Source: a virus. Taken from it: a stretch of 29,554 bases of DNA. The notes below the pieces were generated by a model that had not been told where the DNA came from, ran no database searches, and worked only from the letters and a program-made list of their open reading frames with translations. Numbering within the stretch: the stretch's first letter is position 1; every line of letters starts with the position of its first letter. Of this stretch, positions 7,357 through 28,319 are shown one piece after another. Location of the stretch: IMG/VR virus record IMGVR_UViG_3300046740_000489, positions 1 through 29,554 of that record. The stretch is one strand, 5' to 3'. The position numbers and the translations under genes were made by a program.

Positions 7357-7365
7357 CTCGAGCCG

Positions 7366-8270: not shown

Positions 8271-8806
8271 GCGATCCGACGCGCGACGAGGCGGTGAGCT
8301 TCCAAGCGGCCCGGGCGGGAACGCTCGACGGGCTGCGCGCCGCGATCATCGCGCGCATGGGCGTCGTCGCCGACAAGTTCCAATTCCTGCAGACGAAGAA
8401 AGGCGAAGATCGCTCGCCCGAGGTGGTCGACGGCTGGCTCGACTTTCTCGTCGACAACGACGTCGAGCGCTTCCCTTTCATCATCGTCCGCCCGACCAAC
8501 GGAAAGGACTCTCCCCAGGGTGCCGAACAGGACGCGACGGCGATCGTGAAGCTGATCGTCGGCACCTACAGCGACACCAAGGACGGCTTCCGCGACGCGG
8601 TCCAGGTTCTCGATGCGATCCGCGAGGACCTCGCGTCCGCGCCGACGATCGATGGCACCGCATACGAGCATACCGGCCCGCTCGAGTGGGAAGTCTCCGA
8701 AGAGCAGCACCGCCCGCAATGGATGGCGGTCGCGATCACCAACTGGACCTTGCCGCGCCCCCGTCGCGTCGAGGCGCTGAACCCCGACTCGGAGGCGAAA
8801 GAATGA
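8267..8806 (+). CDS. Putative tail terminator / tail completion protein
   Basis: A 179-residue protein with ATG overlapping the Z stop (ATGA) and its own stop overlapping the sheath start (ATGA). The order helix, strand, long helix and strand (FPFIIVRPTNGKDS, then DATAIVKLIVGTYSDTKDGFRDAVQVLDAIREDLASAP, then a final WMAVAITNWTLPRP strand) resembles tail terminator proteins that cap the tube beneath the neck. The slot just before the sheath gene is also that of a terminator. No family signature is certain at sequence level. Confidence 0.5.
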   Translation: MSDPTRDEAVSFQAARAGTLDGLRAAIIARMGVVADKFQFLQTKKGEDRSPEVVDGWLDFLVDNDVERFPFIIVRPTNGKDSPQGAEQDATAIVKLIVGTYSDTKDGFRDAVQVLDAIREDLASAPTIDGTAYEHTGPLEWEVSEEQHRPQWMAVAITNWTLPRPRRVEALNPDSEAKE

Positions 8807-13372: not shown

Positions 13373-13577
13373 CCCGACCTACACCACGCGCAGCGGCGAC
13401 ACCTGGGACGCGATCTCTTTCCGCGTCTTCGGGACCGAGAACTACATGGACCTGCTGCTCGACAAGAATCCGCAGCAGAACGGTGTCGCACGCTTCGACG
13501 CCGGCGTCGTCCTCGATGTCCCTGCGCTGCCCGATCCGGTGCGCCCCACGAGCCTGCCGCCGTGGAGGGTCACGTGA
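13365..13577 (+). CDS. X: Tail protein X (LysM-like baseplate protein)
   Basis: A 70-residue protein with a LysM-like pattern (YTTRSGDTWDAISFRVFGTENYMDLLLDKNP), as in P2 gpX (67 aa). In contractile tails this small protein connects the tube initiator or hub. It begins inside the last codons of the tape measure (ATG 13365, 8-base overlap) and ends with a GTGA overlap into a mini-gene. Order and size match P2, where X also accompanies the hub genes. Confidence 0.9.
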   Translation: MASPTYTTRSGDTWDAISFRVFGTENYMDLLLDKNPQQNGVARFDAGVVLDVPALPDPVRPTSLPPWRVT

Positions 13578-13663
13578 GCCTCCTTCAGCTCGTGCGCTGG
13601 CACTTCTCCATCGGAGACCTGGCGTGCATCGCCTGGTGGTCGACGATCGGGAGGCTCCTGTGA
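13574..13663 (+). CDS. Mini-gene between X and D (29 codons)
   Basis: A short frame GTG 13574 to TGA 13661-13663 encodes 29 residues with a hydrophobic/aromatic core (ACIAWW). Both junctions are GTGA overlaps: its GTG overlaps the X stop and its TGA overlaps the D start at GTG 13660. That arrangement argues for real translation, at least to carry ribosomes from X to D. It could be a small membrane peptide or only a coupling leader; no family is recognised. Confidence 0.45.
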   Translation: MSLLQLVRWHFSIGDLACIAWWSTIGRLL

Positions 13664-14754
13664 GCGACCCGGTGCTCGATCCATTTACCCCGCGCCCGGA
13701 CGATCCGCAGGCGCTGCAGATCCTCGACCCCTACCCGGGCAAGAAGATCGCGCGGCACGCCAAGCTCGCGGTCACCTGGGAGTCGAAGGGGATCACGCGC
13801 GACCTCGGCCCCAACCTTCTCTCGCTCGAATACACCGACAACCTCTCCGGCGCGGCCGACGATCTCACCTTCGAGATCCAGGATCGCGATATGAAATGGT
13901 CGACCGATTGGCGCCCGACCTTCGGCGACTCGGTCGTCGCGCGCCTCGAGGTTTCCGAGAGCTGGTTCGCCGACGTCGAGGATCTGCGCCTCGGGAAGTT
14001 CGCGCACGACAGCGTCGGCTTCTCGGGGCCGCCGCACCGGGCCAGCTTCAAGTGCGTTTCCGCACCTCTCGCCACCGGCCTGCGCCGCCGCAAGCGAACC
14101 CGGGTGTGGCGCGGCCAGCGCATCGATCAGATCGCGAAGGACATCGCTGATCGCGCCGGCCTCGCGCTGCAGTTCGACGGCGACCAGGGCGACGCCTTCG
14201 GGCACGCGCAACAGGTCGACAAAAGCGACCTCGAGTTCCTCGAGGAGATCTGCAAGCAGGTCGGCCGCACGCTGAAAGTTGGCGAAGACAAGATCATCGT
14301 CTTCGACGAGGCGCAGATCGACCAGGGTGACTCGGTCGGCACCATCGACCTCATCGGCGGGAAGGTCCTCACCTGGTCGTTCGACGGCGACGACAGCGAT
14401 CGCTACGGGACCTGTCACGTCACCTTCTTCGATCCGAAGAGCGGCAAGGAGCAGAAGGGCGAGTTCGTCGACAAAAATAACCCCGACGGCCAGACGCTCG
14501 AGCTGCGCGTCCCCGTCTCCTCGCAGGGAGAAGCGACGAAGCGTGCGAAGGCGCTGCTGCGCAACGCCAACCGGTTCGCGACGAAGGGCAAGCTCACCAC
14601 CATCGGCGATCCGGGTCTCGTCGCTGGGGTGATCTTCGATCTCACCAACTCCGGCGGCTTCGACGGGAAGTTTATCATCACCCGTGCCGAGCACCGCGTC
14701 GGAGGCGGCTACGTCACCGCCCTCGACGTGCGCCGCTGCCTGGAGGGCTACTAG
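13660..14754 (+). CDS. D: Baseplate hub protein (P2 late control gene D-like)
   Basis: A 364-residue hub protein; P2 D is 387 aa. It fits the Phage_GPD family: DLGPNLLSLEYTDNLSGAADDLTFEIQDRDMKWSTDWRPTFGDSV is the typical first barrel, followed by RTRVWRGQRIDQIAKDIADRAGLAL and DLEFLEEICKQVGRTLKVGEDKIIVFDE. The C-terminus ITRAEHRVGGGYVTALDVRRCLEGY is the family's closing strand ('i..v.H....g.t..l...r'). It forms the trimeric hub that holds the spike. In P2 the same protein also modulates a transcription activator, which need not apply here. The true start is GTG 13660; the frame is open far upstream as a tape-measure shadow. Confidence 0.9.
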   Translation: MSDPVLDPFTPRPDDPQALQILDPYPGKKIARHAKLAVTWESKGITRDLGPNLLSLEYTDNLSGAADDLTFEIQDRDMKWSTDWRPTFGDSVVARLEVSESWFADVEDLRLGKFAHDSVGFSGPPHRASFKCVSAPLATGLRRRKRTRVWRGQRIDQIAKDIADRAGLALQFDGDQGDAFGHAQQVDKSDLEFLEEICKQVGRTLKVGEDKIIVFDEAQIDQGDSVGTIDLIGGKVLTWSFDGDDSDRYGTCHVTFFDPKSGKEQKGEFVDKNNPDGQTLELRVPVSSQGEATKRAKALLRNANRFATKGKLTTIGDPGLVAGVIFDLTNSGGFDGKFIITRAEHRVGGGYVTALDVRRCLEGY

Positions 14755-15285
14755 ATGCGCGGCGAGCTCCGGTCGGGCCGCGTCTCCTCGGTCGACGCGA
14801 AGAAGCATACGGTCAAGGTGCGGTTCTTCGAAGGTCGCAAAGACGACAACGACACCGAGGGCGGCTTCATCTCGGACGATCTCCCGATGATGTTCACTCG
14901 GCGCGGAGACTACTCCCTCCCGGCGAAGGACGATCCGGTCCTCTGCTTCATCGGCGACGGCTTCAAGGGCGTCGGCTACTGCCTCGGCCTGTTCTACAAC
15001 GACGCGGACGCGCCTCCCACCGACGACAGCGCTCGGCGCGTGGTCGCCGGCGACGACGTGCGCCTCGGTGCCTTCGACGCCAGCGACAAGGTCGCGCTCG
15101 CCCCGGCGACGAAGGACGAGATCCAGAAGGTGCTCGACTACGCCGACGGGATCGCGACGGCGATCAAGGGCGGTGTCGTGGTCGCACAGGACGGCGGCGC
15201 GAGCCTGAAGTCGACGATCGTCGCCGCGCTCCCGCTCAAACCGACGATCGATGCGCCGGCCGCCGAGAAGGTGAGCGCCAAATGA
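14755..15285 (+). CDS. V: Baseplate spike protein (gpV-like)
   Basis: A 176-residue central spike component; P2 gpV is 211 aa. The first 90 residues look like the OB-fold (RSGRVSSVDAKKHTVKVRFFEGRKDD, then FTRRGDYSLPAKDDPVLCFIGDGFKGVGYCLGLFYNDAD). Then DDVRLGAFDASDKVALAP begins the beta-helical needle, followed by a predicted helix and a short tail. I do not see the C-terminal HxH metal motif of P2 gpV, so the tip may be supplied by another protein. ATG 14755 begins immediately after the D stop. Confidence 0.85.
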   Translation: MRGELRSGRVSSVDAKKHTVKVRFFEGRKDDNDTEGGFISDDLPMMFTRRGDYSLPAKDDPVLCFIGDGFKGVGYCLGLFYNDADAPPTDDSARRVVAGDDVRLGAFDASDKVALAPATKDEIQKVLDYADGIATAIKGGVVVAQDGGASLKSTIVAALPLKPTIDAPAAEKVSAK

Positions 15286-15671
15286 GCTACGCGACGCTCG
15301 GAGACGACATCACTTTCGAGGTCAAAGACACCAAGTTCTACACCTGGTCGAAGGCCGATCGCTCGGGCGAGGGTCGCTGGGCGGAGCACCTGGTCTTCGC
15401 CGGCAAGCCCGCGCTCGAGTTCCTCGGGCCAGGTCTCGACACGATCATGCTCTCGATCCGATTCGACACGGATCGCGGGGTCGAGCCGCTCGACGAGGTG
15501 AAGCGCTTCCGTCTGTTGCGCGACACCGGGGCGGTATCGCAGTTCACGATCGGCGGAAAGCTGGTCGGCGACTTCGTCGTGCCGCATCTCGACGAGGAGC
15601 TGGTGCGACACCAGCCGAACGGTCGCCTCCAGACGGCGATCATCCGCGTGACGCTGAAGGAGTACGCCTGA
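15282..15671 (+). CDS. U: Tail protein U-like
   Basis: A 129-residue protein resembling P2 gpU (159 aa) in the segment LEFLGPGLDTIMLSIRFD, the short version of the family's 'pslqf.G.g...itl.G.l.p' motif, followed by LRLLRDTG-like text and a closing beta region (RLQTAIIRVTLKEYA). P2 U is needed for tail assembly. In P2 it lies just before D; here it lies after V. It is joined to V and to the next gene by ATGA-type overlaps. Confidence 0.75.
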   Translation: MSYATLGDDITFEVKDTKFYTWSKADRSGEGRWAEHLVFAGKPALEFLGPGLDTIMLSIRFDTDRGVEPLDEVKRFRLLRDTGAVSQFTIGGKLVGDFVVPHLDEELVRHQPNGRLQTAIIRVTLKEYA

Positions 15672-15946
15672 TGGCCATCATCTGGGCACCCACCGAGGTC
15701 GAGGAGGTGGTGCAGAACGTCCGCACCCTGCTCGTCACCGACGTCGGCTCGGTGCCGCTTTCGCGCGCCATGGGAACGCCGCAGGACGTGGTCGACACGC
15801 CCGAGTCGGCCGCCGGCGCGCGCCTGCAGGCCGACGTGATCAAGGCCGTCCGCACCTACGAGCCGCGCGTCAAGGTCGCCGACGTGAAACTCACCGCCAC
15901 CGCCGACGGGAAGCTAGTCGCCACGGCAGAGCTCGAGGCCCCATGA
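15671..15946 (+). CDS. W: Baseplate wedge protein (gp25/P2 gpW-like)
   Basis: A 91-residue wedge protein of the GPW/gp25 family. Typical features are the NVRTLLVTDVGSVPLSRAMGTP segment (family 'i..iL.T..GerpmrpdfG') and the final helix-strand DVIKAVRTYEPRVKVADVKLTA (family 'i..al...EPRi.v..v.v'). It is slightly shorter than P2 W (115 aa). It joins hub to wedges together with J and I. TGATG overlap at the start and ATGA overlap into J. Confidence 0.92.
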   Translation: MAIIWAPTEVEEVVQNVRTLLVTDVGSVPLSRAMGTPQDVVDTPESAAGARLQADVIKAVRTYEPRVKVADVKLTATADGKLVATAELEAP

Positions 15947-17121
15947 GCGATCTAGTCTTCGCCGAGAAGGACCCCGCGACCGTCATTGCCGAGGCGCTGC
16001 AGGTCTACTTCGAACAGACCGGCGTGCATCTCGCACCGGCCGATCCGAAGCGGTTGCACCTGCAGGCCTTCCTGCTCCTGCTCGCGCAGCAGCGCCAGAA
16101 GATCGACTACGCCGGCAAGCAGAACCTCCTGCGCTACGTCGACCTCAACATGCCGATCGAGAAGGCGCTCTTCATCCAGGCGCTCGCCGAGCTCTGGGGC
16201 GAGGTGCCGCTCCCGGCGAAACCCTCGACCTGCACCGTGCGCTTCTCCTTCGCGGTCTCCGGACCGCAGACGATTCCGCACGGGACGCGGGTCACCGACG
16301 GGACCAGCACCTGGGCAATCGGACCCGACGACGTCAGCGGCTTCGGCTTGTTCGTCGATGCTCCGGTCTCTTGCACCATCGACGGGTCGTCCTCGAACGG
16401 CGTCGCGCCTGGGCAGATCGACACCCTCGTCAACCCGATCTTCGGCTGCACCGGCATCGTCAACACCACCGAGACCATCTCGGGGCGCGATCTCGAGACC
16501 ACCGAGGCCTTCCGCGAGCGCCTCCGCTCGGTGCCCGAGAGCCGATCGACCTGCGGACCGCGCATCGCCTATGAGGCCGCCGCGCTCGAGGCCTCGGCCT
16601 CGGTCGCCGACGTCGTGGCCCTCGGCGCGCGCGATGCCGCCGACATGTTTAGCAACCCACCGCCGCCCGCCGGCGACGTGTGGATCTTCCTCACCGAGGG
16701 CACGCGCGATGCCAACGGCGTGTTGATCTCAACGATCCCGACGCCAAGCGGCGGCCTCCTCACCACCGTCGGCGACGCGCTCTCGGCCGAAGACGTCCGA
16801 CCGCTCACCGATCACGTCGTGCCGAAGACTCCGATCTTCCGCGACTTCGATGTCGATGCGACCTACTACATCGCAAAGAGCCGGTCGAAGTCGGCGGTGG
16901 AAATCCAGGCCGCGGTCGCGCTGGCCTTCGACGCCTACGTGCTCTGGCAGCAGGCGATCGGGCGCGACATCAACCCGTCGGAGCTGACTACGCGCCTCGT
17001 GAACGCGGGCGCGAAGCGGGTCGTGCTGCCTCTGCCCTTCGTTTTCGAAGCTTTGATGAGCGACCAGTGCTCGCGCATCGGGTACGCGACGCTCACCTAC
17101 GGCGGCGTGGAAAATGATTAG
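15943..17121 (+). CDS. J: Baseplate wedge protein J
   Basis: A 392-residue Baseplate_J family protein; P2 J is 302 aa, so this one has extra loops. It includes the helical N-terminus (HLQAFLLLLAQQRQKIDYAGKQNLLRYVD), the barrel VRFSFAVSGPQTIPHGTRVTDG (family 'i.aGt.v...dg..F') and GRDLETTEAFRERLRSVPESRSTCGPRIAYEAAAL, the conserved J segment. Residues about 280-390 form an alpha/beta end domain. It bridges neighbouring wedges in the baseplate. Coupled to W and I by overlaps. Confidence 0.92.
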   Translation: MSDLVFAEKDPATVIAEALQVYFEQTGVHLAPADPKRLHLQAFLLLLAQQRQKIDYAGKQNLLRYVDLNMPIEKALFIQALAELWGEVPLPAKPSTCTVRFSFAVSGPQTIPHGTRVTDGTSTWAIGPDDVSGFGLFVDAPVSCTIDGSSSNGVAPGQIDTLVNPIFGCTGIVNTTETISGRDLETTEAFRERLRSVPESRSTCGPRIAYEAAALEASASVADVVALGARDAADMFSNPPPPAGDVWIFLTEGTRDANGVLISTIPTPSGGLLTTVGDALSAEDVRPLTDHVVPKTPIFRDFDVDATYYIAKSRSKSAVEIQAAVALAFDAYVLWQQAIGRDINPSELTTRLVNAGAKRVVLPLPFVFEALMSDQCSRIGYATLTYGGVEND

Positions 17122-18203: not shown

Positions 18204-18446
18204 CTATTCGATGCAGTGGCCGCCGGCGCCGATGGCGCAGCACACGCCCTCGACGCCACACCCGAACGGCGAGAAGACGTCGCAGGCCTTCGCAGCTTCG
18301 GCCGGCGCGCAACAGCGCTCGCCGATCTGCCCGCAGGGGCCGGCGTCGACCGCATCGGCGTCGCTCGAAGCGTCGCCGGGGTTCACGGGGAGGGCGGCAG
18401 TTCCGCAGCCGACGAGGAGAAACAGGAAGGCGAGGTACTTGCGCAT
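18204..18446 (-). CDS. Cysteine-rich lipoprotein (reverse-strand moron)
   Basis: An 80-residue protein on the opposite strand to everything around it. A lipoprotein signal peptide is clear: MRKYLAFLFLLVGC with lipobox LVGC and C14 as the lipidated residue. A Pro/Ser/Asp/Ala linker (GDASSDADAVDAG) follows, then a compact domain with eight cysteines (38, 45, 46, 55, 63, 69, 70, 78), including two CC pairs, which suggests disulphide packing outside the cytoplasm. Linker and Cys style resemble many small Myxococcota lipoproteins. It probably acts in the host envelope during lysogeny, for example in superinfection exclusion, but this is a guess. ATG 18470, eight codons upstream, is an alternative start. 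Only seven bases separate its stop from the convergent fibre gene. Confidence 0.7.
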   Translation of the reverse strand: MRKYLAFLFLLVGCGTAALPVNPGDASSDADAVDAGPCGQIGERCCAPAEAAKACDVFSPFGCGVEGVCCAIGAGGHCIE

Positions 18447-18483
18447 GCTCAACGATGGATCCCCGAGCATGCGCCGGTCAACA

Positions 18484-18557
18484 CCGTCGGTGATTTGCAT
18501 GCAAAAGCATGCAGTTATGACTTGCCCCGTCGGTGAGCGTGCGCGCTCCCGTCGGTG
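18484..18557 (+). repeat. Three direct copies of CCGTCGGTG
   Basis: Exact 9-base copies at 18484-18492, 18527-18535 and 18549-18557. Start-to-start distances are 43 and 22 bases, near four and two turns of DNA, so bound proteins would lie on the same face. This is the spacing expected of an operator with repeated half-sites. No regulator for it can be named from this window. Confidence 0.6.
18496..18513. repeat. Perfect hairpin TGCATGC-AAAA-GCATGCA
   Basis: A 7-base stem with a 4-base loop, lying between the first and second 9-base repeats. There is no T-run on either side, so a terminator is unlikely; an operator or mRNA hairpin in the lipoprotein leader is more plausible. Confidence 0.55.
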
Positions 18558-18593: not shown

Positions 18594-19037
18594 ATGAGCA
18601 CGCCCCTGTTTCTTCGCGACCCCCGGGCCGGCTACAACCAGACGATCATCTCGCCGGAGACGGACCCGGGAATCCTGGGCCGCACGCTTCCTCCGTCGAC
18701 GCTCGAGGATTGGAAGGAGCTCTTCTTCGAGGTCGAGGAGCCGATCCTCATCGAGTCGCTGCGCTACTGCGCGCACACCTACTCGACGGAGGCGGGGACG
18801 ATCGTCATCGCCTTGAAAAATGAGGAGTACGGCGGCGGCGGCTACGCCTACATCGTCGGCGCGTTCGCGGTGGCCGCCGGCCTCGCGTTGCCGGGCCCCT
18901 TCGCCAGCGACGAGATCGACATCGACCTGACCGTCCCCGCCGGCTGGAGCTTCCTCGTGATGCACAACGTCAAGGTGAGCGGCGGCGGGAGCTTCGCGAC
19001 GCTCGACATCGTCGCGTGCGGCGGCGTCGTCCGATGA
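18594..19037 (+). CDS. Unknown beta-rich protein, probable fibre/tip component
   Basis: A 147-residue protein I do not recognise. The frame extends upstream, but ATG 18594 has a GAGG site at 18582-18585. The sequence is rich in short strands separated by Gly/Pro turns (AGTIVIALKN, GGGGYAYIVGAFAV, EIDIDLTVPAGWSFLVMHNVKVSGGGSFATLDIVACGG), consistent with an all-beta sandwich such as a carbohydrate-binding or fibre-tip domain. There is no signal peptide. Its place after a truncated fibre adaptor suggests a receptor-binding role. Its stop overlaps the next gene (ATGA). Confidence 0.6.
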   Translation: MSTPLFLRDPRAGYNQTIISPETDPGILGRTLPPSTLEDWKELFFEVEEPILIESLRYCAHTYSTEAGTIVIALKNEEYGGGGYAYIVGAFAVAAGLALPGPFASDEIDIDLTVPAGWSFLVMHNVKVSGGGSFATLDIVACGGVVR

Positions 19038-19546
19038 AGGGGCGCGGCCCTCGCGGCATGAAGCGCCCCCCAGCGTTCCCCGATCCGTCGAAGCTCGCCG
19101 ACGGGCAGGTGGCCACCGTCGAGGGTGGGAAGTGGACCGCGCAAACACCGGGAGGGTCGAGCTTTCCGATCGCCACCGTCGCCACTGGTGGAATCGGGAG
19201 CCCTCCCGATCCGGATCCTTCGAATGAAGCGCTGATCCTCTCCGACGACGGATCCCTCAGCGATCCGATTTCCGTTCCGGCGGGAGTCACCAAGGTTCGC
19301 CTGCGCCCGCTCTCCGACGCTTTCAAGGCGGCGATCGGGGTCGTCTGGCATTCGCCTCCGTTTTGGAAACCGCAATCCGGAGCCACCGCCACCCCGAACG
19401 CCGACGGCACCTTCCCGGTGATCGCATCGACCACCTGCCACGTCGGGATGATCACCTATTCGACCTGGAACTACAGCGACTCCCTCGGCGCCGCGGTCCC
19501 CGCGGGGGCGGTGGTCGCGTCCTGGGAGTTGGAGTTCTTGCCGTGA
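19034..19546 (+). CDS. Probable tail fibre segment protein
   Basis: A 170-residue protein beginning with a basic stretch (MKGRGPRGMKRP), followed by PDPSKLADGQVATVEGGKWTAQTP. This 'l.dGqv.tv..g.W....p' motif recurs in phage fibre proteins between adaptor and shaft. The rest is beta-rich with Ser/Thr/Gly (ILSDDGSLSDPISVPAGVTKVRLRPL, then TTCHVGMITYSTWNY, ending VVASWELEFLP). It may be an external head or tip of the fibre together with the preceding protein. ATG 19034 overlaps the previous stop, ATG 19058 is an internal alternative, and the stop overlaps the first glycosyltransferase (GTGA). Confidence 0.6.
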   Translation: MKGRGPRGMKRPPAFPDPSKLADGQVATVEGGKWTAQTPGGSSFPIATVATGGIGSPPDPDPSNEALILSDDGSLSDPISVPAGVTKVRLRPLSDAFKAAIGVVWHSPPFWKPQSGATATPNADGTFPVIASTTCHVGMITYSTWNYSDSLGAAVPAGAVVASWELEFLP

Positions 19547-20469
19547 TCGTCGATGTCCTCGCTCGACGCTGGGGAAGTCCCGAAGGTGCGCCTGACGGCA
19601 TGGCGATGGCGGCCGCCTACCTCGCCTTTACGCTCGCCGAGCTCGGCCACCAGGTACGCGGCTACACGGGCGGCGGCGCGACTCCCGCGTGGAAGCACCC
19701 GCGCATCGAGTGGCGCGAGCGCTCGCCGCTCTTCGGCCCGTCCTCCTTCGATGCCGATCTGATCATCTCGACGATCCAACCGCAGTGGCGGCGCCTGGCG
19801 CTCGACGCCACCAAGGCCGGAGCGATCGACCGCACGGTCTTCTGGCATCACCACGGATCGGTCCCGCAGGGCCTCGGCGGCATGCTGGCGGGCCTCAACC
19901 GCCCCGCGGTGTTCGGCGCCCAGGGATGGCGGAGCGTGCTCCTGCTGCCGCCCTCCAGCTGGGCCGCCGAGGTCGTCAATCGAGTGGTCGGCGACGCGAT
20001 CCTCGTCCCCGGGGCCGGCGCGGCCAAGGGCGGCTACATCGCTCGTGAGGTCGCCAAGCTCTGTCCCGAGCTGCGCTGGTACGTCCTCCCCGGCCGGCAT
20101 GCCGCGCATGACCTGCAGCCCTGGCAGGCGCTGCGCAACGCCGAGGTGGCGCCCGGTCTCGTGACGCCGGCGACCTTCCTCGCGCGCGCTCGGGCGGTCC
20201 TGTCGCCGACCCGCGAGGAGATCCACCCCCTCACCCTGGTCGAGGCCGCGGTGCGCGGGATCCCCATCGTCTGCACCGATCTCCCGGCGACCCGCGCCGC
20301 GCTGCTCGATGGCGCGTCCTACGTGCCCCTGGGCGCGCCCCCGCTCGCCTGGGCGATGGCGCTGCAGGGCGCGCTGCGCCACCAGCTCGAGCCGCTCAGC
20401 CTGCGCCCCTACGCCGAGGTGGTCGCCGGCGCCCTCGAGCAGCTCGCCGGCGCGCGGAGGGCCGCGTGA
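19543..20469 (+). CDS. Glycosyltransferase, GT-B fold (GT4-like)
   Basis: A 308-residue protein with two Rossmann-like halves. The N-terminus MIVDVLARRWGSPEGAPDGMAMAAAYLAFTLAELGHQVRGYTGGG is a typical GT4 opening (helix, 'LaelGHeV.vyt'). The C-terminal donor-site segment is SPTREEIHPLTLVEAAVRGIPIVCTDLPATRAALLDGA (about 221-260), with the E-x7-E-like pair E226 and E234. No signal peptide or membrane segment, so it should be cytosolic. It transfers a sugar from an activated donor; donor and acceptor cannot be read. GTG 19543 overlaps the fibre protein stop, tying this cassette to the tail operon. The GT4 core usually exceeds 340 aa, so this is a compact version. Confidence 0.8.
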   Translation: MIVDVLARRWGSPEGAPDGMAMAAAYLAFTLAELGHQVRGYTGGGATPAWKHPRIEWRERSPLFGPSSFDADLIISTIQPQWRRLALDATKAGAIDRTVFWHHHGSVPQGLGGMLAGLNRPAVFGAQGWRSVLLLPPSSWAAEVVNRVVGDAILVPGAGAAKGGYIAREVAKLCPELRWYVLPGRHAAHDLQPWQALRNAEVAPGLVTPATFLARARAVLSPTREEIHPLTLVEAAVRGIPIVCTDLPATRAALLDGASYVPLGAPPLAWAMALQGALRHQLEPLSLRPYAEVVAGALEQLAGARRAA

Positions 20470-21356
20470 GACCGCGGGTCTCGATCCTCGCGGACGTTCG
20501 CGGGTGGGCCTGGGATCGGAAGTCGCAGCAGCTGCAGCGGCACCTCGGGGACGAATTCGAGATCGACATCGCCTACCTCTACGCCTCGAGGCCCGATCCG
20601 CTCCCGCCCGGGAGCGACCTCTACAACACCTTCGAGGTCTTCCAGGCGTCGAGGCTGCCGTCGGGCCTGCCTTACGTGACCGGCATGACCGCGCACGTCT
20701 GGCCGACCTGGGAGCAGAAGCACGGCGCTGGAACGGTTCGCCGCTGGTCGGAGGCCGCGCGCGCATTCCATGCGAATAGCCGCCTCCTCGAGGCCGAGAT
20801 GGCGGCGCTCCTGCAGCGCCCGATCTGCTACTGCCCGAACGGCGTCGACGAGACCTTCTTCCGCCGCACCCGCCAGCGCGAGCAGGACAAGCACCTGGTG
20901 GTCGGCTGGGTCGGCAAGCCGAACCCGCGCAAGGGATCGGACATCGTCGCCGCAGCCTGCAAGGTCGCCGGCGTCGAGCTGCGGACGGTCGGCCGCACCT
21001 ACCGCGACGCGCTCGGGCCCGAGGCGATGCGCGAGTTCTACCAGGATCTGCACGTCCTCTGCGTCGCCTCCGACATGGACGGCACGCCGAACCCCGCGCT
21101 CGAGGCGGCCGCATGCGGCGTGGCGGTAGTGAGCAACCGGATCGGCAACATGCCCGAGTTCATCACCGACGGGGACAACGGCGTCCTCGTCGAGCGCAAC
21201 GCCGAGAGCATGGCCCGCGCGCTGCGGGCGCTCTCCTTCGACGTGAAGCGCGCCGCGCAGATGGGCGAGGCCGCGCGCGCCACCGTCGAGCGCGCCTGGT
21301 CGTGGCGCGACCTCTCGAAAAACTACGCCGACATGTGGCGAGGAGCTCTCAAGTGA
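20466..21356 (+). CDS. Glycosyltransferase family 4-like protein
   Basis: A 296-residue GT-B enzyme. Clear signs: FHANSRLLEAEMAALLQRPICYCPNGVDETFFRR ('..s..l...l......i..ipnGvd...f'), HLVVGWVGKPNPRKGSDIVAAA ('vgwvGr....KG.d'), and the donor-binding DGTPNPALEAAACGVAVVSNRIGNMPEFITDGDNGVLV near 205-243, with E213 in the place of the E-x7-E motif. The acceptor-side N-terminal domain is short. It is presumably cytosolic. GTG 20466 overlaps the preceding stop and the stop overlaps the next GTG, so it is coupled within the cassette. Confidence 0.9.
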   Translation: MRPRVSILADVRGWAWDRKSQQLQRHLGDEFEIDIAYLYASRPDPLPPGSDLYNTFEVFQASRLPSGLPYVTGMTAHVWPTWEQKHGAGTVRRWSEAARAFHANSRLLEAEMAALLQRPICYCPNGVDETFFRRTRQREQDKHLVVGWVGKPNPRKGSDIVAAACKVAGVELRTVGRTYRDALGPEAMREFYQDLHVLCVASDMDGTPNPALEAAACGVAVVSNRIGNMPEFITDGDNGVLVERNAESMARALRALSFDVKRAAQMGEAARATVERAWSWRDLSKNYADMWRGALK

Positions 21357-22159
21357 TCCCCTACGACGTGATCGTCTCGTCGGTCCACGACCGCGGCGAC
21401 CTGCTCAACCGCACCCTCCGCTCGATGCTCTCGCGCGTCGACCAGCTGCCGGCGCGGATCATCGTTCACGAGGACGCGCGCCCCGGCCGGCCCGTCGTCG
21501 AAGGCCGCACCGAGGAGATCTTGGCGGCGATCGGACGCGAGTACATCGTGCTCACCGAATTGATCGCGACGCGCCCCGGCCAGGGGCTGGCGCTCGCGAT
21601 GCTGCGCCTCCTCGAGGTGGCCTCAACGGAGTTCGTCTTCTACACGCAGGAGGACTTCGACTTTGTCCGCGAGGTCCCCATCGCCGCCTGCGTCGAGCTG
21701 ATGCAGCGCCACGCGCTCAACCATGTCCGTTTCAACAAGCGCGACACGCTGCCGATCAAGGGCGCGCACCGGCCCAACCGCGCCGAGTGGTGGACCAAGG
21801 AGGAAGTGGTCTTCGGCGGGCAGAAGCTCTGCGTCTCCGATCACGTCTACTTCCAGGCCAACATCACCCGGCGCGCGCTCTGGCTGCAGGGCTTCAAGGA
21901 GCTGCTGCTCCACAGCCCCGACGGCATGCAGCGCTGCGAGGCGAAGTTCAACGACTGGTTCAACAAGCGCTACGGCGACAACGCCGGCTCCGTCGACGGC
22001 TCGCAGGCCAAGCGGCGCGACCTCCTGCGCACCTTCATCTGGGGCGGCGTTGGCGAGCCACGCTTCGTCCTGCACACCGGGGCCGAGCGCCGTTCTCAGG
22101 GTTGGGGCGATCCGGAGCACGACCGCAAGCATGGCACCGTCAACGGAGAGAAGGCGTGA
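21353..22159 (+). CDS. Glycosyltransferase, GT-A fold (GT2-like)
   Basis: A 268-residue protein with a GT-A style N-terminus: DVIVSSVHDRGDLLNRTLRSMLSRVDQLPARIIVHEDA ('.i.vts..r...l..tl.sl......'), then EFVFYTQEDFDFV at about 93-105, where EDFD (100-103) occupies the metal-binding DxD place. It differs from standard GT2 in lacking an obvious QxxRW motif. The C-terminal region (WWTKEEVVFGGQKLCVSDHVYFQANITRRALWLQGF) may form the acceptor site. It is predicted to be soluble. GTG 21353 overlaps the previous stop. Confidence 0.75.
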   Translation: MIPYDVIVSSVHDRGDLLNRTLRSMLSRVDQLPARIIVHEDARPGRPVVEGRTEEILAAIGREYIVLTELIATRPGQGLALAMLRLLEVASTEFVFYTQEDFDFVREVPIAACVELMQRHALNHVRFNKRDTLPIKGAHRPNRAEWWTKEEVVFGGQKLCVSDHVYFQANITRRALWLQGFKELLLHSPDGMQRCEAKFNDWFNKRYGDNAGSVDGSQAKRRDLLRTFIWGGVGEPRFVLHTGAERRSQGWGDPEHDRKHGTVNGEKA

Positions 22160-23079
22160 GGCGACCGCTCCGCAGCGTCATGCTCTGCAACCCGAGCTAC
22201 CTCTCGGCTTACGTCCTCGGCGTGGCCCAGGCGATGGGCGCGCTCGGGCACTGGCACCGCGAGGTGAGCGTGCTCGACGATCCGGAGCGCGTCGTCCGAC
22301 AGCTCGAGGAGATGCGCCCCGATCTGATCTGGACGCACACCGTTCCGTGGGTGCCGCGCGAAGCTCCGTCCCCGGGCTGGCTCCTGCTCGAGCTGCTCGC
22401 CGCTTGGCGCAAGCGAGGCGCGCGCGTGGTCCTACACGACGGCGATCCGCGCACCGCGACGCGCTACCCGCAGGACCTCTCGGCCGCCTTCGACGTGGCG
22501 CTCTGCAACCACTCAATGTCGCGGATCGAGTGGCGGATCCCCTCGGTGCGCTGGCCCTACGCGGCGATGGCGCAGCGAGAGATGGCCGAGCCCGTCGACG
22601 ATCTGCGCTGCGCCCTGCTCTTCGCCGGCATCGTGCGGAAAGACGACGAGCTCTACTCGCCACGCTCCGAGGTCCTCGGCCACCTCCGCGCCCGGCTCGG
22701 CGAGGCGCTCACCATCCGCACCGCGACGGTCAACGACCGCATGCAGGCGGCCGACGTCGCCGTCTCGGCCCGGGCCATTCTCGGCTTCGGGCGCCCCGAG
22801 GTCCCCGGCTGGGTCGACACCCGCGTCTTCCAATACCCCGGCGCCGGCGGCGTGCTGATCCACGACGACGCGCAGGAGTTCCTCGTCCCCGGTGGCCACT
22901 TCGTTCGCTTCTCCCGCGGCGCCACCGCAGAGGAGACCGCGAGCAGCGTGATCGAAGCGTGGCAGAGGATCGGCCACGTTGAAGCCGAGCTGCGCGCCAA
23001 GGCCTTCGCGCACATCCAGGAGCACCACACCTGGCGCCACCGCGTCGAGCAGGCGCTCTCGCTCCTAGGTGTCGTGTGA
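22156..23079 (+). CDS. Glycosyltransferase-like protein, first of a tandem pair
   Basis: A 307-residue protein of the Glyco_trans_1_2-like kind. The N-terminal half has LCNPSYLSAYVLGVAQAMGALGHWHREVSVLDDPERVV and RGARVVLHDGDPRTATRYPQDLS. The C-terminal half has the donor-site pattern: AILGFGRPEVPGWVDTRVFQYPGAGGVLIHDDAQEFLVPGGHFVRF, then a closing helix EHHTWRHRVEQALSLL, as in that family ('R.fE..a.G..ll....e.......g.e.v.f', then 'ht...R...ll'). It shares long blocks with the next gene, so the pair arose by duplication. GTG 22156 overlaps the previous stop. Confidence 0.78.
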   Translation: MRRPLRSVMLCNPSYLSAYVLGVAQAMGALGHWHREVSVLDDPERVVRQLEEMRPDLIWTHTVPWVPREAPSPGWLLLELLAAWRKRGARVVLHDGDPRTATRYPQDLSAAFDVALCNHSMSRIEWRIPSVRWPYAAMAQREMAEPVDDLRCALLFAGIVRKDDELYSPRSEVLGHLRARLGEALTIRTATVNDRMQAADVAVSARAILGFGRPEVPGWVDTRVFQYPGAGGVLIHDDAQEFLVPGGHFVRFSRGATAEETASSVIEAWQRIGHVEAELRAKAFAHIQEHHTWRHRVEQALSLLGVV

Positions 23080-23984
23080 GGCCGCTCCGCTCGCTCCTGC
23101 TCGGCGACACCGACCACTACCTCTCGCCGTACATCTTCGGCGTGGCGCAGGGAATGGCGCGCCTCGGTCACTGGCACTCGTCGGTGAGCATCCGCCAACC
23201 AGCGAACGTGATCGAGCAGCGCATCACCGACGTGCGCCCCGACGTGCTCTGGACACACATGCTGCTCTGGCCGCCCCCCGGGAGCCCCGGCGTCGAGCGC
23301 CTGGTGGCGATCGTCGAGCGTGCGGCGAAGCGCGGGGCCCGCGTCGTGATCCACGACGGCGACTACAAGCCGGCGACGCGCCACCCGCACGACATCTCCC
23401 GCTGGTGCGCGCTCGCGCTCTGCAACCACACCTTCGACCGCTCGGCGTGGAAGGTCCGCACGCTGCGCTGGCCCTACTTCGCCTTCGCCCAGGAGCGCAT
23501 CGCCAGCGCCTCCCCGCAGCTCGGGTGCGAGCTCTTCTTCGCCGGGTCCATCGGGCGCGACCCGGTTTACTCGGCGCGGTCTCGGCTGCTCGACCAGGTG
23601 CGCTCCGCCGGCGTCCGCCTCCGTCTCGGCGACGATGGCAACACGCTCTTCCGCACCGCGGAGATCGCCGCGAGCGCCGACGCGGTCCTCGGCTTCGGCC
23701 GGCCGGGCTCGACGGGGTGGGTCGATACGCGGGTCTTTCAGTACCCGGGCGCCGGCGCGATCTTGCTGCACGACGACGTCTCCGGCTTCCTCGTCGCCGG
23801 CGAGCACTACATCCCCTACCAGTCGGGAAGCGCAGAGAGCATCGCCGAGGCCCTGGCGCGGTTGCGGGCCATGTCGATCGTCGATCGCCTCGCGCTGCGC
23901 CGGCGCGCGTTCGAATACGTGCAGACCCGGCACTCGTCGACGTCGCGCGTGCATGAAGTCCTGATCTCGCTGGGGGTGGCGTGA
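23076..23984 (+). CDS. Glycosyltransferase-like protein, second of a tandem pair
   Basis: A 302-residue paralogue of the preceding gene. Shared blocks include GLGHWH-like text, RPD[LV][IL]WTH, GARVV[LI]HDGD, the ATR[YH]P[QH]D[LI]S segment, ALCNH, RWPY, LGFGRP and the identical GWVDTRVFQYPGAG. The donor-site C-terminus (LLHDDVSGFLVAGEHYIPYQSG) is kept, while the N-terminal acceptor half differs more. That suggests the two enzymes use a similar donor but act on different positions or acceptors. GTG 23076 overlaps the previous stop, and the stop overlaps the next small gene. Confidence 0.78.
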   Translation: MRPLRSLLLGDTDHYLSPYIFGVAQGMARLGHWHSSVSIRQPANVIEQRITDVRPDVLWTHMLLWPPPGSPGVERLVAIVERAAKRGARVVIHDGDYKPATRHPHDISRWCALALCNHTFDRSAWKVRTLRWPYFAFAQERIASASPQLGCELFFAGSIGRDPVYSARSRLLDQVRSAGVRLRLGDDGNTLFRTAEIAASADAVLGFGRPGSTGWVDTRVFQYPGAGAILLHDDVSGFLVAGEHYIPYQSGSAESIAEALARLRAMSIVDRLALRRRAFEYVQTRHSSTSRVHEVLISLGVA

Positions 23985-24271
23985 TGCCGACCGAGACCTT
24001 CGAGCAGTACGAGGCCCGTCGGGAGAACGCGCGGAAGCGTGAGGCGGCCGCGCGGTGGCCGGAGATGGTCGACGAGAACAACCCCGACCACTGGATCTAC
24101 AAGATGCCGACGGTCGGAGAAGTAGTCGCCGCCGGCTACAAGGCCGAATACCACGCGAGCGTCGCCGAGGAGCGCGCCGAATTCGTGCGGCGGTTTCGCG
24201 AAGACCCGGAGTTCCGCGCGACGACGATCAGGCATGCGAGAGAAGCCCGCGCCGCGGAGCAACAGCGATGA
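23981..24271 (+). CDS. Unknown small charged protein
   Basis: A 96-residue protein rich in E, R and A (ETFEQYEARRENARKREAAARWPEMVDENN, ending AREARAAEQQR), with predicted long helices at both ends and a short middle (PDHWIYKMPTVGEVVAAGY). No signal peptide, membrane segment or known motif. The start is GTG 23981, overlapping the glycosyltransferase stop. The stop overlaps the methyltransferase start (ATGA), so it is kept in phase with the cassette and may be an accessory or adaptor for these enzymes. That role is inferred from position only. Confidence 0.6.
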   Translation: MMPTETFEQYEARRENARKREAAARWPEMVDENNPDHWIYKMPTVGEVVAAGYKAEYHASVAEERAEFVRRFREDPEFRATTIRHAREARAAEQQR

Positions 24272-24861
24272 CCTCATTCATCGCGCAGGCCCTGCAGGAT
24301 CGCCAGCTCGGACTCGCGCTGCATTACCCGCTGCTGCATGCGATGGTGCTCGGCCTCGACGCGCGGCGCACGCTCGAATTCGGCGCCGGCGGCTCGACGA
24401 GGGTGATCACCGACGCGATCGCACTGACTCGCGGGATGCACGTCTCGATTAGCACCGAGGACCTCGAGGCGGTCGAGCATCGCTACGGCGTCCATCGACA
24501 GCACTGGCGCCACTTCTGCGGCCTCTCCGACGAGCACCGGAACGTCGAGGCCGGCGACCTCGACCTGGTCCTGCACGATGGGTCGCACGCGGCCGACGTC
24601 GTCGCTCGCGATGTCGCCTGGGTGTGGCCGAAGATCCGCCGCTTCGGGCTGCTGCTGGTGCACGACACCCAGCACAGCTACGTCGGGGCCGAGATGCGCG
24701 AAGGCCTGGCCCGCGGTCTCGAGCTCGCCGGCGCCTGTCGCAGCATGACGACGCTCCCCTTCGGCTTCGGCCTCACGATCGTTCGCCGCGAAGATGGCGA
24801 AGCTCCGATCGTCCCGGCGCGCGCCAAGATCGGCAGCCCTCACACGACGTGGCCAGCATGA
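24268..24861 (+). CDS. SAM-dependent methyltransferase (class I, Methyltransf_24-like)
   Basis: A 197-residue class I methyltransferase. Motif I is RRTLEFGAGGSTRVITDAI (about 33-51, with the Gly-rich SAM loop GAGGS). Later DLDLVLHDGSHAADVVARDVAWVWPKIRRFGLLLVHDT follows the family's 'D.ifiDg.H.y..v..Dl....p.l..gG.iv.hD' pattern. This family often acts on sugars or other small substrates in glycan loci. No DNA-methylase motif (DPPY/NPPY or PCQ) is present. ATG 24268 was chosen because it overlaps the previous stop and starts just before the fold. Confidence 0.8.
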   Translation: MTSFIAQALQDRQLGLALHYPLLHAMVLGLDARRTLEFGAGGSTRVITDAIALTRGMHVSISTEDLEAVEHRYGVHRQHWRHFCGLSDEHRNVEAGDLDLVLHDGSHAADVVARDVAWVWPKIRRFGLLLVHDTQHSYVGAEMREGLARGLELAGACRSMTTLPFGFGLTIVRREDGEAPIVPARAKIGSPHTTWPA

Positions 24862-26054
24862 AGATCTTCGAGACCCTCGACCTCACCGCGCCCGGCGTGG
24901 TCCTCGGCAACCACGGCGTATGGATGCCCGGGCGCTGCATTAAGGTCCCGTTTCAGTGGAGCGGCCGCGTCACGAAGCGCACCCGACGCGAGGCCAGTTA
25001 CTCGCGTGAGACCATCGTTGACGAGGTGTGCATCCTCCGAGCGCTCGCCGAGCTTCGGATGGCGCCGCCCGTCGGCGACCTGGTCTACTTCAAGAACATC
25101 GTCTCGGACTATCCGGGCGCCTGGCATTGCGATCCCTGCGGCGCCTACGGCTACGAGATCGCCGACGCTCGCTCCCTGAAGCCGGGCCGTTACGACGTCG
25201 CCTCGATGCGCGCGATGTGGGAGCAGCAACCCGACGGCACCGCCGGCTTCGAGTTGGCGTGCGTGGCCGCTCCGCTCAAGCCGACGCCGTTCCACGATCT
25301 GCCGGTCGAAGGCTCGCCCGGCGCGTGGGGGGACGTCGCGAAGCCGGACAACGTCGTCAACGGCTACCTCGTCGACGTGCGGCGCACCGGGTGGGATCTG
25401 CTGCAGTGGAAGGGACAACGCTTCGAGCTTCCCGATCCGCGCGAGGACGTCGACGAGCTCTCGGTTCGCGTCCACCGCGAGTGCCAATTCCCCGCTGGCG
25501 AGCGCGCCGAGGCCTACCAGGACTTCTATCTCGATCGCCTCTGGCATCTAGGACAGCGCCGCGTGGTCGAGCGCGCCGAGCTGCTCGGCTTCGTTCCGCG
25601 CGCGGGTGAATCGGTGCTCGAGATCGGCTGCCAGTCGGGCGGCTTCCTGCAGCTCGCCGCGCTCGCCGGCGCCGAGGCGATCGGCGTCGAGGTCGACCCG
25701 AACTACATCGACTGCGCGCGCGCCCTGGCCCGCTCGTCGAGCCTCAACATCTGCATCCGCCGCCTCGATGCGGTCGCCGAGATGGCGCTTCTTCTCGACT
25801 GGATCGGCGCGCGCTTCCCCGCCGGCCTCGATCACCTACTGCTGCTCTCAATGGAGAAGCACCTCGGCGAGGAAAATCTCTTCCAGCTCGTCGACGCGCT
25901 CGGCGCGCGCCGCACGTACATCGAGACCAATGCGGTCAGCGACGCGCGGCCGATGAAGCTGCTCGACCAGGTGCGAGCTCGCGGTGGCCGCCACGTCGGC
26001 GACTCGCACGATCGCAACCTTCGCCGCCTCTACCAGATCACCAAGGAGACCTGA
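24858..26054 (+). CDS. Methyltransferase with an unusual N-terminal domain
   Basis: A 398-residue protein in two parts. Residues about 240-398 form a class I methyltransferase: VLEIGCQSGGFLQLAALAGAEAIGVEVDPNYIDCARALA (motif I near 253-262 and an acidic ribose-binding position in VEVDP), then DAVAEMALLLDWIGARF and a hydrophobic strand HLLLLSMEKH. Residues 1-235 are not typical of this fold. The order of strand, basic RCIKVPF strand, helix RETIVDEVCILRALAELRMAPP and 'GYEIADA' loosely recalls the N-lobe of kinase-like proteins ahead of some phage methyltransferases. A lone CDPC pair (91-94) is present. The substrate is unknown; glycan methylation fits the neighbours. ATG 24858 overlaps the previous stop. 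Confidence 0.75.
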   Translation: MKIFETLDLTAPGVVLGNHGVWMPGRCIKVPFQWSGRVTKRTRREASYSRETIVDEVCILRALAELRMAPPVGDLVYFKNIVSDYPGAWHCDPCGAYGYEIADARSLKPGRYDVASMRAMWEQQPDGTAGFELACVAAPLKPTPFHDLPVEGSPGAWGDVAKPDNVVNGYLVDVRRTGWDLLQWKGQRFELPDPREDVDELSVRVHRECQFPAGERAEAYQDFYLDRLWHLGQRRVVERAELLGFVPRAGESVLEIGCQSGGFLQLAALAGAEAIGVEVDPNYIDCARALARSSSLNICIRRLDAVAEMALLLDWIGARFPAGLDHLLLLSMEKHLGEENLFQLVDALGARRTYIETNAVSDARPMKLLDQVRARGGRHVGDSHDRNLRRLYQITKET

Positions 26055-26056
26055 CC

Positions 26057-26500
26057 ATGTCGATCACGACTGCGATCGCCCAGACCGCGAAGAAGGAGTT
26101 CTTCGACGGCGTGCACCTCTCGTCGCACACCTACAAGTGCCTCCTGCTGAAGGTCGGCGCGGCGGGCACCTACTCGAAACTGACCACGGGTGTCGGCACG
26201 CCCGGGTCCGGGTCGCCGTCGTCATCGAACGTCGGCACCGACGAGGCGAGCGGCACCGGCTACAGCTCGGGCGGCGTGGCACTCACCCGCAACGCGACCT
26301 CCGCGGGCGACACCGTCTACCTCGACTTCGACGACGCGGTGTGGGCGGCCGCGAGCCTCTCGGCGATCGGCTGCATCATCTACAACGACACCGTCGCGGG
26401 AAAGCCGGTCCTCATGGTGCAGGACTTCGGCGGCACGATCACGTCGACCGCCGCCGAGTTCCGCGTCGCGATCGCCAACCTCCTCTCGCTGGCCGGCTGA
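26057..26500 (+). CDS. Probable virion structural protein
   Basis: A 147-residue protein opening with TAIAQTAKKEFFDGVHLSSHTYKCLLLK, then Ser/Gly/Thr-rich turns and TGYSSGGVALTRNATSAGDTVYLDFDDAVWAAASLSAIGCIIYND. This layout ('tAk..fl.G.h......yk.aLy...a', then 'GtGY..gGvaL') recurs in a family of small phage structural proteins of unclear virion place. A strong AAGGAG at 26043-26048 precedes ATG 26057, a new ribosome-loading point after the enzyme cassette. Its TGATG overlaps the next gene. Confidence 0.65.
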   Translation: MSITTAIAQTAKKEFFDGVHLSSHTYKCLLLKVGAAGTYSKLTTGVGTPGSGSPSSSNVGTDEASGTGYSSGGVALTRNATSAGDTVYLDFDDAVWAAASLSAIGCIIYNDTVAGKPVLMVQDFGGTITSTAAEFRVAIANLLSLAG

Positions 26501-27297
26501 TGTCGCTCGCCACCGTCGACGACATCGTAGCGGGCCTCGCCTCGGCGCAGAGGATCCCGTATTACAAGACGCTCTCCGCGCCGAAGGCTGCCGGCGCATT
26601 TCAGTCGGCATGGCTGTCGGGTGGCATGCCAGGAGCGGGATCGGCGTCGCCCGCGTTCAACGCCGGCGCCGGCTATGCCTGCGACAAGTCGACGACGGGG
26701 GCCTTCCCTTACAGCAACGCCGCGGTGCAGAACTGGCTCGCCCGCATCTCCGGCCTCTCCTCGCAGCCGGGGACGATCATCCTCGCCGACCGCCTGTGGA
26801 GCTGCTCGGGCATGGGCTTCGCCAACTCGACATACACCGTCACGACGCCGGGGTCGCTGCCGGCACGCATCACCGACAACGGCGTCGGCTGCGAGCTCTG
26901 GGTCGAGCAGTTCGTCGCCGCCGGGTCGGCGTCGGGAACGCTCACCGCGAACTACCTCAACACCGCGGGCGCGTCGAAATCGGGCGTCCTCGGCGCCGTC
27001 GTCTCCGCTCCCGTCGTCGGACAGATGCAGCAGGTGCCGCTGCAGGCGGGCGACCTCGGGATCAAGCAGTTGACCTCCGTCACCAACTCGGCGACCTGGA
27101 CCTCGGGCGGCTGGGGCATGACGATCTTGAAGCGCATCGCCGAGATCCCGATCGGCCAGTCGGGCATCAACACCGTCCTCGACTGGGCCGCCTGCCTCGC
27201 CGCGATCCCCGCGGACGCCTGCATCATGGCCTTCTTCTCGGCGCAGAACACCACCGCGCCGAACATCAGCGGCATCGCGGCGGTGATCGACAAGTGA
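26500..27297 (+). CDS. Probable virion structural protein, beta-rich
   Basis: A 265-residue protein. It begins with SLATVDDIVAGLASAQRIPYYKT and continues with Gly/Ser/Thr-rich strands (GTIILADRLWSCSGMGFANSTYTVTTPGSLPARITDNGVGCELWVEQFVAAGSASGTLTANYLN). The C-terminal region has QQVPLQAGDLGIKQLTSVTNSATWTSGGWGMTILKRIAEIP, an 'L..GD.G...v..v..s.......g....l' pattern found in tail or external capsid proteins of several phages. No catalytic residues are seen. It is coupled to the genes on both sides (TGATG and GTGA). Confidence 0.6.
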   Translation: MSLATVDDIVAGLASAQRIPYYKTLSAPKAAGAFQSAWLSGGMPGAGSASPAFNAGAGYACDKSTTGAFPYSNAAVQNWLARISGLSSQPGTIILADRLWSCSGMGFANSTYTVTTPGSLPARITDNGVGCELWVEQFVAAGSASGTLTANYLNTAGASKSGVLGAVVSAPVVGQMQQVPLQAGDLGIKQLTSVTNSATWTSGGWGMTILKRIAEIPIGQSGINTVLDWAACLAAIPADACIMAFFSAQNTTAPNISGIAAVIDK

Positions 27298-28319
27298 GCG
27301 CCTGGGGCTACAAGGCCCTCCTTCGCGACCGCCACCTGGTGCGGCCGGCGTTCGATCACACCGCTGGATCGGCGGTGTCGGCCATCTCGCGGCAGATGTT
27401 CTTCGGCAGCATCAGCCGCGTGGGCACCAAGGCGCTCGCGGCCGGCCTGGTCGCTCCGGTGCCGACGGGCAAGGCGGCCGCGGCGGTGTCGACCGTGGCG
27501 ATCACCACCTCGATCGGTACCGTCGCGGCGACGGGGAAGTCATCCGCGAGTGCCGGAACGCAGGCGCTCACCGCGGCGCGCGGGACCCTCTCGGAAACCG
27601 GCAAGGCGTCGACGCCGGCGAGCCCACAGGCGCTCTCGATCGCGCGCGGGACGGTGAGCCCTGCCGGGAAAGCCTCGGCCGCCGCAGCGACCGGGGCGCT
27701 CTCGGCCGCCGTTGGGACGATCACGCCGACCGGGAAGGCCTCGAGGTCGGCCGGGCCGGCTGCACTCAGCGCGTCGATCGGAACGGCGGCCGCTGCCGGG
27801 AAGGCGAGCACCACCGCCGGACCGCGCGCCCTGGCGATCGCGATCGTCTCGCTCACAGAGTCCGGCGGCGAGACGACGGCGATCCCGACGCGCGCGCTCT
27901 CGATGGCGATCGGGACCGTCACCGCCCACGGCGCGGCGGCCGCCGAGGCCGACCAGGTCGCCCTCAACCTCGCGAGCGAGGAGCCTGTGGTTTCCGGCCT
28001 GGCGCTGGTCGCCGTGCAGACGTCGGCGCTCACGCTGGCGATCGGCTCGGTCGACGTGCCCCGTGCGGTCAAGGCCCGGTTTCGCATCCCGATGGTGCAG
28101 ATGTCGATCACCAGCGTCGAGGCCTCGGCGCGCGGAAGAGCGCTCGCCCACACCCGCACCATGCGGCTCACCGTTCGACGCTGGCAGGTCCCCGGAAACC
28201 GCGGCGACAAGAGGCTCGGCCACTGCCGCGCGACGGGGCGTTCTCTCGTCGCTGCGACGTCCTGCTGCATGTCGCTGTCGATCGGACACCTCGAAGCGAT
28301 CGGGGTCCTGGACCCATGA
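27294..28319 (+). CDS. Repeat protein with 22-residue units
   Basis: A 341-residue protein built mostly of 22-residue units. From residue 74 to 293 ten units follow with no insertion or deletion, and weaker units at 30-73 keep the same spacing. The consensus is roughly IGTV..TGKAS..AG..ALS.A. The conserved Gly, alternating hydrophobics and small residues suggest a beta-solenoid or stacked beta hairpins, as in fibre shafts. The last 48 residues depart from the pattern, are basic, and contain a CC pair; SIGHLEAIG near 329-337 may be a displaced half-unit. No signal peptide. It is probably a virion fibre or shaft component. GTG 27294 overlaps the preceding stop. Confidence 0.65.
   Translation: MSAWGYKALLRDRHLVRPAFDHTAGSAVSAISRQMFFGSISRVGTKALAAGLVAPVPTGKAAAAVSTVAITTSIGTVAATGKSSASAGTQALTAARGTLSETGKASTPASPQALSIARGTVSPAGKASAAAATGALSAAVGTITPTGKASRSAGPAALSASIGTAAAAGKASTTAGPRALAIAIVSLTESGGETTAIPTRALSMAIGTVTAHGAAAAEADQVALNLASEEPVVSGLALVAVQTSALTLAIGSVDVPRAVKARFRIPMVQMSITSVEASARGRALAHTRTMRLTVRRWQVPGNRGDKRLGHCRATGRSLVAATSCCMSLSIGHLEAIGVLDP
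27513..28172 (+). repeat. Ten in-frame 66-base repeat units
   Basis: Codons 74-293 of the repeat protein, ten units of 66 bases. The first five share GG(A/G)AAG..(G/T)C around the GKAS codons and a GCGCTC for AL. Later units diverge, especially the last three. Unit number could change by recombination between the early copies. Confidence 0.75.

Follow-up and report, generated by a model that had tools for sequence, protein, structure and literature searches.

Gene content and layout of the cassette

The window analysed here is a linear virus record of 29,554 bases from IMG/VR (IMGVR_UViG_3300046740_000489), probably incomplete, in which eight consecutive plus-strand genes at 19543-26054 form a cassette of glycosyltransferases and methyltransferases placed among virion genes. 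By gene order and protein families the window belongs to a P2/X29-like contractile-tailed phage with a GC content of ~0.68: genes for the terminase large subunit, portal, head protease, decoration protein, major capsid protein, neck, sheath, tube and tape measure are followed by baseplate genes, gpJ, gpI and a collar-fibre N-terminus. Its closest cultured relatives, as judged from the sheath and capsid proteins, are Pararheinheimera phage KLER1-1 and Vibrio phages (37-45% identity). The equivalent position in KLER1-1 is occupied by fibre genes, with no glycosyltransferases annotated there.

A preliminary description of this sequence had proposed the cassette, and its eight open reading frames (ORFs) were confirmed, with families assigned for six of them. 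They encode four GT-B glycosyltransferases, one GT-A-like enzyme, a small protein and two methyltransferase-type proteins. The reported four-base start/stop overlaps were also found at all eight cassette starts, including the junction of the preceding gene (f19034) with GT1, as GTGA in six cases and ATGA in two, and a structural-type gene does resume at 26057, two bases past the last cassette stop. Since such overlaps are frequent across the whole late region of the phage (e.g., 5839/5842, 15282/15285 and 26497/26500), they reflect operon membership rather than a peculiarity of the cassette.

The assignment of GT-B enzymes relies on family profiles above cut-off for GT1, GT2, GT4 and GT5, together with the E/DX7E motif of the first two. 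GT1 (19543-20469), of the group 1/GT4 type, matches PF13692 (Glyco_trans_1_4) with an E-value of 1.8e-6 and shows an EX7E motif at residue 226, and the GT4-type enzyme GT2 (20466-21356) matches the same family at 8e-17, keeps a DX7E motif and has mannosyltransferase 3oka as its best PDB match. GT4 (22156-23079) and GT5 (23076-23984), both members of PF13524 (Glyco_trans_1_2; 6e-12 and 3.5e-9, respectively), are tandem paralogs sharing 42% identity. GT3 (21353-22159) has no family match above cut-off in Pfam. It gives a weak profile match (E 0.05) to the GT2-family enzyme PglI and shares the conserved motifs YTQ[E/D]D and RFNKR with its phage homologs; the PglI match and the first of these motifs are the two features that point to a putative GT-A-like enzyme. 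The sixth gene (23981-24271) encodes a protein of 96 residues for which no family was found above cut-off in Pfam or PHROG.

MT7 (24268-24861) is an O-methyltransferase-like protein of the Methyltransf_24 family (PF13578, 3.2e-10; macrocin/CmcI-type), and the best PDB matches of its profile, although weak (E 0.04-0.05), are O-methyltransferases including demethylmacrocin O-methyltransferase and 3ssm. MT8 (24858-26054, 398 residues) combines a novel N-terminal domain with a C-terminal S-adenosylmethionine (SAM) methyltransferase that matches Methyltransf_23 (PF13489) at its cut-off (4e-6). The SAM-binding motif I is kept in both proteins, in MT8 as EIGCQSGG. For the N-terminal domain of MT8 no PDB relative was found; a conserved WxD...N...D pattern is visible there by eye, and a WbdD-like kinase domain stayed unproven. 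Single-sequence AlphaFold models were unusable (pLDDT of 37 for GT3 and 32 for MT8).

Conservation and recurrence of the enzyme families

A close relative of the window phage, IMGVR_UViG_3300046517_002499 (G012), whose TerL and portal proteins are 81% and 96% identical to those of the window, has f19034, GT1 and GT2 in unchanged order, followed by GT3 as far as residue 209, where its contig stops. The contig ends before GT4 to MT8, so that the comparison covers f19034 to GT3. f19034 and GT1 are 99% and 97% identical between both phages, and dN/dS values are 0.09 for f19034 and 0.11-0.14 for GT1-GT3, those of the baseplate genes being equally low. GT1-GT3 are, therefore, under purifying selection, and these values, together with the homologs in other phages described below, indicate that the reading frames of the cassette are real. 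At the DNA level, identity to G012 reaches 97-99% in f19034 and the start of GT1 compared with ~87% in the preceding gene, and both genes thus seem to have been transferred together as a single piece. When genomes were scanned with TerL, eight loci appeared, all distant, and no close prophage relative was among them; a scan of genomes with gpJ gave no match.

MT8, GT2, GT3, GT5 and their relatives produced no tblastn match in 50,697 phages, and MT7 had a single match among these records, located in a sugar island of Kyanoviridae (Marine virus AG-345-L05, 33% identity), which also holds DegT and NeuB-like genes as identified by inspection and BLAST. Neither single-protein patterns nor an alignment of GT4/GT5 detected close relatives of MT8 or GT4 in viral contigs. 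A pattern scan with GT3 reached one viral contig of 104 kb (G117), and two others, of 38 kb (G118) and 169 kb (G119), came up when GT3 homologs were aligned; the records with these sugar islands are IMGVR_UViG_3300005440_000008, 3300010391_001853 and 3300025015_000010. GC contents are ~0.7 for G117 (from codon usage), 0.59 for G118 (locus L096) and 0.42 for G119 (locus L097).

In G117, GT3 is represented by three homologs and GT2, GT4/5, MT7 and MT8 also have counterparts, with MT7 directly ahead of MT8; G118 carries GT3 (two copies), GT5, MT7 and MT8, and G119 carries GT2, GT3, GT5 and MT8. Identities to the window enzymes are 33-48% overall, reaching 40% for GT2 (G117 and G119), 47-48% for GT5 (all three), 42-47% for MT7 (G117 and G118) and 43-45% over the full length of MT8 (all three). 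The MT8 profile matches these three contigs and none of 36 other viral contigs, and the small sixth protein has no homolog in the three islands. Because GT3, which lacks a Pfam model, and MT8, with its unknown domain, recur together in unrelated phages, the cassette is more than a single-contig curiosity. The joint presence of these families in three unrelated viruses hints that phages may have a means, not described so far, of covering their own particles or the host cell with sugar.

The companions of these genes were also informative. Homologs of an epimerase and of the PIG-L deacetylase are present in all three islands; G117 additionally shows genes for a DegT aminotransferase and WbqC, and G118 and G119 have ATP-grasp genes inside their sugar islands, encoding proteins of the Ter-operon biosynthetic type (L096 2579-3544 and L097 8429-9358). 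These sugar-gene neighbours make it likely that the cassette enzymes act on a glycan. Regarding the genomic surroundings, MT8 of G118 lies ~220 bases ahead of the portal gene, beyond which head morphogenesis and protease genes are found, and MT8 of G117 lies upstream of the small terminase subunit (Terminase_2) and of a terminase-large-like frame, the latter recognised by inspection.

Genes flanking the cassette

The gene coupled to GT1, f19034 (19034-19546, plus strand, 170 residues), is presumed to encode an appendage or fibre protein and is a candidate acceptor. It had previously been called a fibre gene; its coupling to the cassette holds, but no match in Pfam or PHROG lends database support to a fibre identity. 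Downstream, also on the plus strand, a triad is formed by s26057 (26057-26500), a Ser/Thr-rich structural-type protein resembling phrog_644 (1.9e-10), the middle gene s26497 (26497-27297), and s27294 (27294-28319), whose translation is repetitive and rich in Ala, Ser and Thr. These four cassette-flanking proteins have the highest Ser plus Thr contents in the window (18-23%, with 21% for s27294), a composition that fits O-glycan acceptors.

For s26497, 11 homologs with 54-66% identity were found in viral contigs, mostly among portal, head, neck, head-tail or tail genes. By inspection, a short s26057-like gene precedes these homologs in other phages, and a repetitive s27294-like gene often follows (L008, L010, L011 and L012). 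In L010, a nonulosonic-acid-type (pseudaminic-type) pathway comprising Polysacc_synt_2, DegT, NeuB, cytidylyltransferase and GNAT acetyltransferase genes lies at 12202-17086, between the triad and the head-tail joining genes, and in L005 methyltransferase/sulfotransferase and sugar-transferase-like genes lie ahead of the triad. One L005 protein (6720-7730), in the head gene region and adjoining a nucleotide-sugar-transferase-like gene, unites a sulfotransferase-family match with a Methyltransf_24 domain. The idea that the triad generally travels with sugar genes was examined: among the eleven loci L010 is a clear case, L005 a probable one with methyltransferase- and glycosyltransferase-like genes, and L009 a weak one, and an independent BLAST control (1/11 versus 1/61 TerL loci) was too thin to claim an association. 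The proximity is a lead.

Upstream, an antisense lipoprotein gene (~18204-18446, minus strand) lies between the collar-fibre gene and f18594 and separates the cassette block from the baseplate and collar-fibre genes. Expression together with the late structural genes, as previously envisaged, is plausible for the cassette, but the antisense gene at ~18.2-18.45 kb interrupts the block. Its product is small and Cys-rich (MRKYLAFLFLLVGCGTAALPVNPGDASSDADAVDAG...), is conserved in G012 (dN/dS of 0.24 over 18204-18473), and is myxobacterial in style, a possible hint to the host; it is a possible superinfection-exclusion moron. The spacer upstream of both the lipoprotein gene and f18594 contains a perfect short palindrome, TGCATGCTTTTGCATGCA (18480-18520), possibly a regulatory site, and no sigma-70-like promoter was found in this region. 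Elsewhere in the window, at 8260-10260, the sheath ORF as listed starts too early, homology beginning at ~residue 184 (MSHGVNIEEQ..., ~8803), and a separate ORF of 179 residues (8267-8806) precedes the homologous part.

Possible functions and comparison with known systems

Considering (i) the gene content of the cassette, (ii) the catalytic motifs kept in several of its enzymes, (iii) its embedding in the operon, (iv) the joint recurrence of its families in other phages, (v) the purifying selection on GT1-GT3, and (vi) the lack of genes for membrane proteins and DNA hydroxymethylation in what was covered, we give about an even chance to the cassette making a methylated oligosaccharide on a virion appendage. 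Regarding the order of action, the sugars, the acceptor and the place of the product on the virion, we infer a soluble cytoplasmic pathway that, expressed with the virion appendage genes, would use nucleotide sugars of the host to make a short oligosaccharide. The first sugar would be laid down by GT3 or GT1, GT2, GT4 and GT5 would lengthen the chain, and MT7 and MT8 would O-methylate it, the glycan most likely being attached to Ser/Thr residues in at least one of the adjacent appendage proteins, either f19034 or the s26057/s26497/s27294 triad.

Several observations weigh against this assignment. Sequence by itself does not decide for a virion protein as acceptor, and richness in Ser and Thr is ordinary in fibre proteins anyway. 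The larger islands, with their DegT, epimerase, PIG-L and WbqC genes, resemble O-antigen clusters. In G119, the island has a DNA polymerase gene in its vicinity, and the surroundings read contained no gene identified as structural. The antisense lipoprotein gene could signal a promoter of the block's own, a promoter-like site having been found neither way. Finally, gp33-36 of mycobacteriophage Firecracker, considered below, show no homology to the window glycosyltransferases or MT8 by BLASTP, phmmer or hhalign, and MT7 relates to gp33 at the superfamily level only (hhalign probability 49.5%).

The O-antigen-like character of the islands leads to the main competing explanation, namely that the enzymes alter the lipopolysaccharide (LPS) or exopolysaccharide of the host during infection or lysogeny and thereby block superinfection. 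The epimerase and PIG-L genes of the three islands, with DegT and WbqC in G117, and the MT7 match in Kyanoviridae argue in its favour, as do the large sugar clusters of jumbo cyanophages, interpreted as serving O-antigen or capsule modification (PMC7824862); the nearby lipoprotein could likewise be a moron of the superinfection type. With the same families present in O-antigen-like islands of larger phages and MT7 in a Kyanoviridae one, it stays a serious rival, even though we consider it less likely than virion glycosylation. By hydropathy, neither the cassette nor the parts of G117-G119 that were read encode a polytopic membrane protein, flippases, polyprenol-phosphate transferases and GtrA/B-like proteins included, so that the host would have to supply any pathway that relies on a flippase or on polyprenol. 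Moreover, the cassette is locked among virion genes with no space for a promoter of its own after 19016, and the islands of two relatives (G117 and G118) abut packaging or head genes.

Glycosylation and methylation of a modified DNA base appears highly improbable. Virus-encoded glycosyltransferases that hypermodify DNA are published (Pyle 2024, to go by its citation in PMC12619734), partner genes could lie outside a fragmentary window, MT7 overlaps a PHROG DNA-methyltransferase profile (E 2.8e-4), and a QueC-like gene, below cut-off, adjoins MT7 in G117. Against this, the best family of MT7 consists of sugar and small-molecule O-methyltransferases, and the neighbours in the relatives are nucleotide-sugar genes. 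The earlier remark that no DNA-modification genes are visible held for the incomplete window and beyond it, TET/JBP, C5-methylase and thymidylate synthase-type families being absent from all five contigs, those of 104 and 169 kb included. With hydroxymethylated-base enzymes (TET/JBP, dCMP/dUMP hydroxymethylase) absent from these contigs, DNA modification was rejected as the principal explanation. Production of a small molecule or nucleotide-sugar metabolite that is not attached to any macromolecule, for instance a glycoside or signal for secretion, is improbable too: Methyltransf_24 includes macrolide-sugar methyltransferases and the relatives carry ATP-grasp genes of the Ter type, but the cassette offers no scaffold-making gene, only glycosyltransferases and methyltransferases placed among virion genes.

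Returning to appendage glycosylation, a broader and more tentative proposal, to which we give about one chance in three, is that the two-domain MT8 and GT3 mark a phage glycosylation system that has not been described and has spread horizontally. This system would coat virion appendages of unrelated phages with a methylated oligosaccharide, and the window phage would carry it beside the acceptors, stripped down to a core for assembly and methylation. To our knowledge, mycobacteriophages are the only phages whose enzymes have been shown to glycosylate the virion. If the assignment is true, virion glycosylation would extend to a contractile-tailed phage with unrelated enzymes, MT8 and GT3 would serve as markers for detecting it in metagenomes, the role of fibre glycans in adsorption, protection or defence evasion would become testable, and methylated glycoproteins could be produced with a handful of soluble enzymes.

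The mycobacteriophage precedent invoked in the preliminary description stands, to the extent that Freeman 2023 is cited for it in PMC12619734 and PMC12691614. Its statement that phage glycosyltransferases usually lie in separate moron operons was too strong, since structural-operon blocks of this kind are already published. In cluster O mycobacteriophages, an O-methyltransferase and glycosyltransferases lie between the portal and protease genes and were proposed to modify the capsid; infected cells contained their products, but none was identified in virions (PMC4351075). Corndog gp35-38 and Firecracker gp33-36 share with the window cassette a methyltransferase, several soluble glycosyltransferases, short overlaps and a location inside a structural operon. 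They differ in belonging to long-tailed mycobacteriophages rather than to a P2/X29-like contractile-tailed phage, and in their position between portal and protease instead of in the tail appendage region. Lacking homology in the glycosyltransferases and MT8, the window cassette at most works like that system and is not a member of it.

The gtr-type serotype conversion and lipid-linked glycan pathways are set apart by their GtrA/GtrB/Gtr, Wzx and WecA/PglC-type proteins, none of which was seen in the cassette or, as far as these were read, in G117-G119. Sugar or LPS-type islands of Kyanoviridae (P-SSM2 type; Marine virus AG-345-L05) resemble the window in having, next to sugar genes, a member of the MT7 family and one more glycosyltransferase-like gene, but include nucleotide-sugar synthesis genes, of which family searches found none within 19016-28319 of the window, where the cassette sits among virion genes. 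The islands of G117-G119, although larger, equipped with epimerase and PIG-L and in part with DegT, WbqC or ATP-grasp genes, and carried by other phage lineages, have the MT8, GT3 and GT5 families, and partly those of GT2 and MT7, in common with the window.

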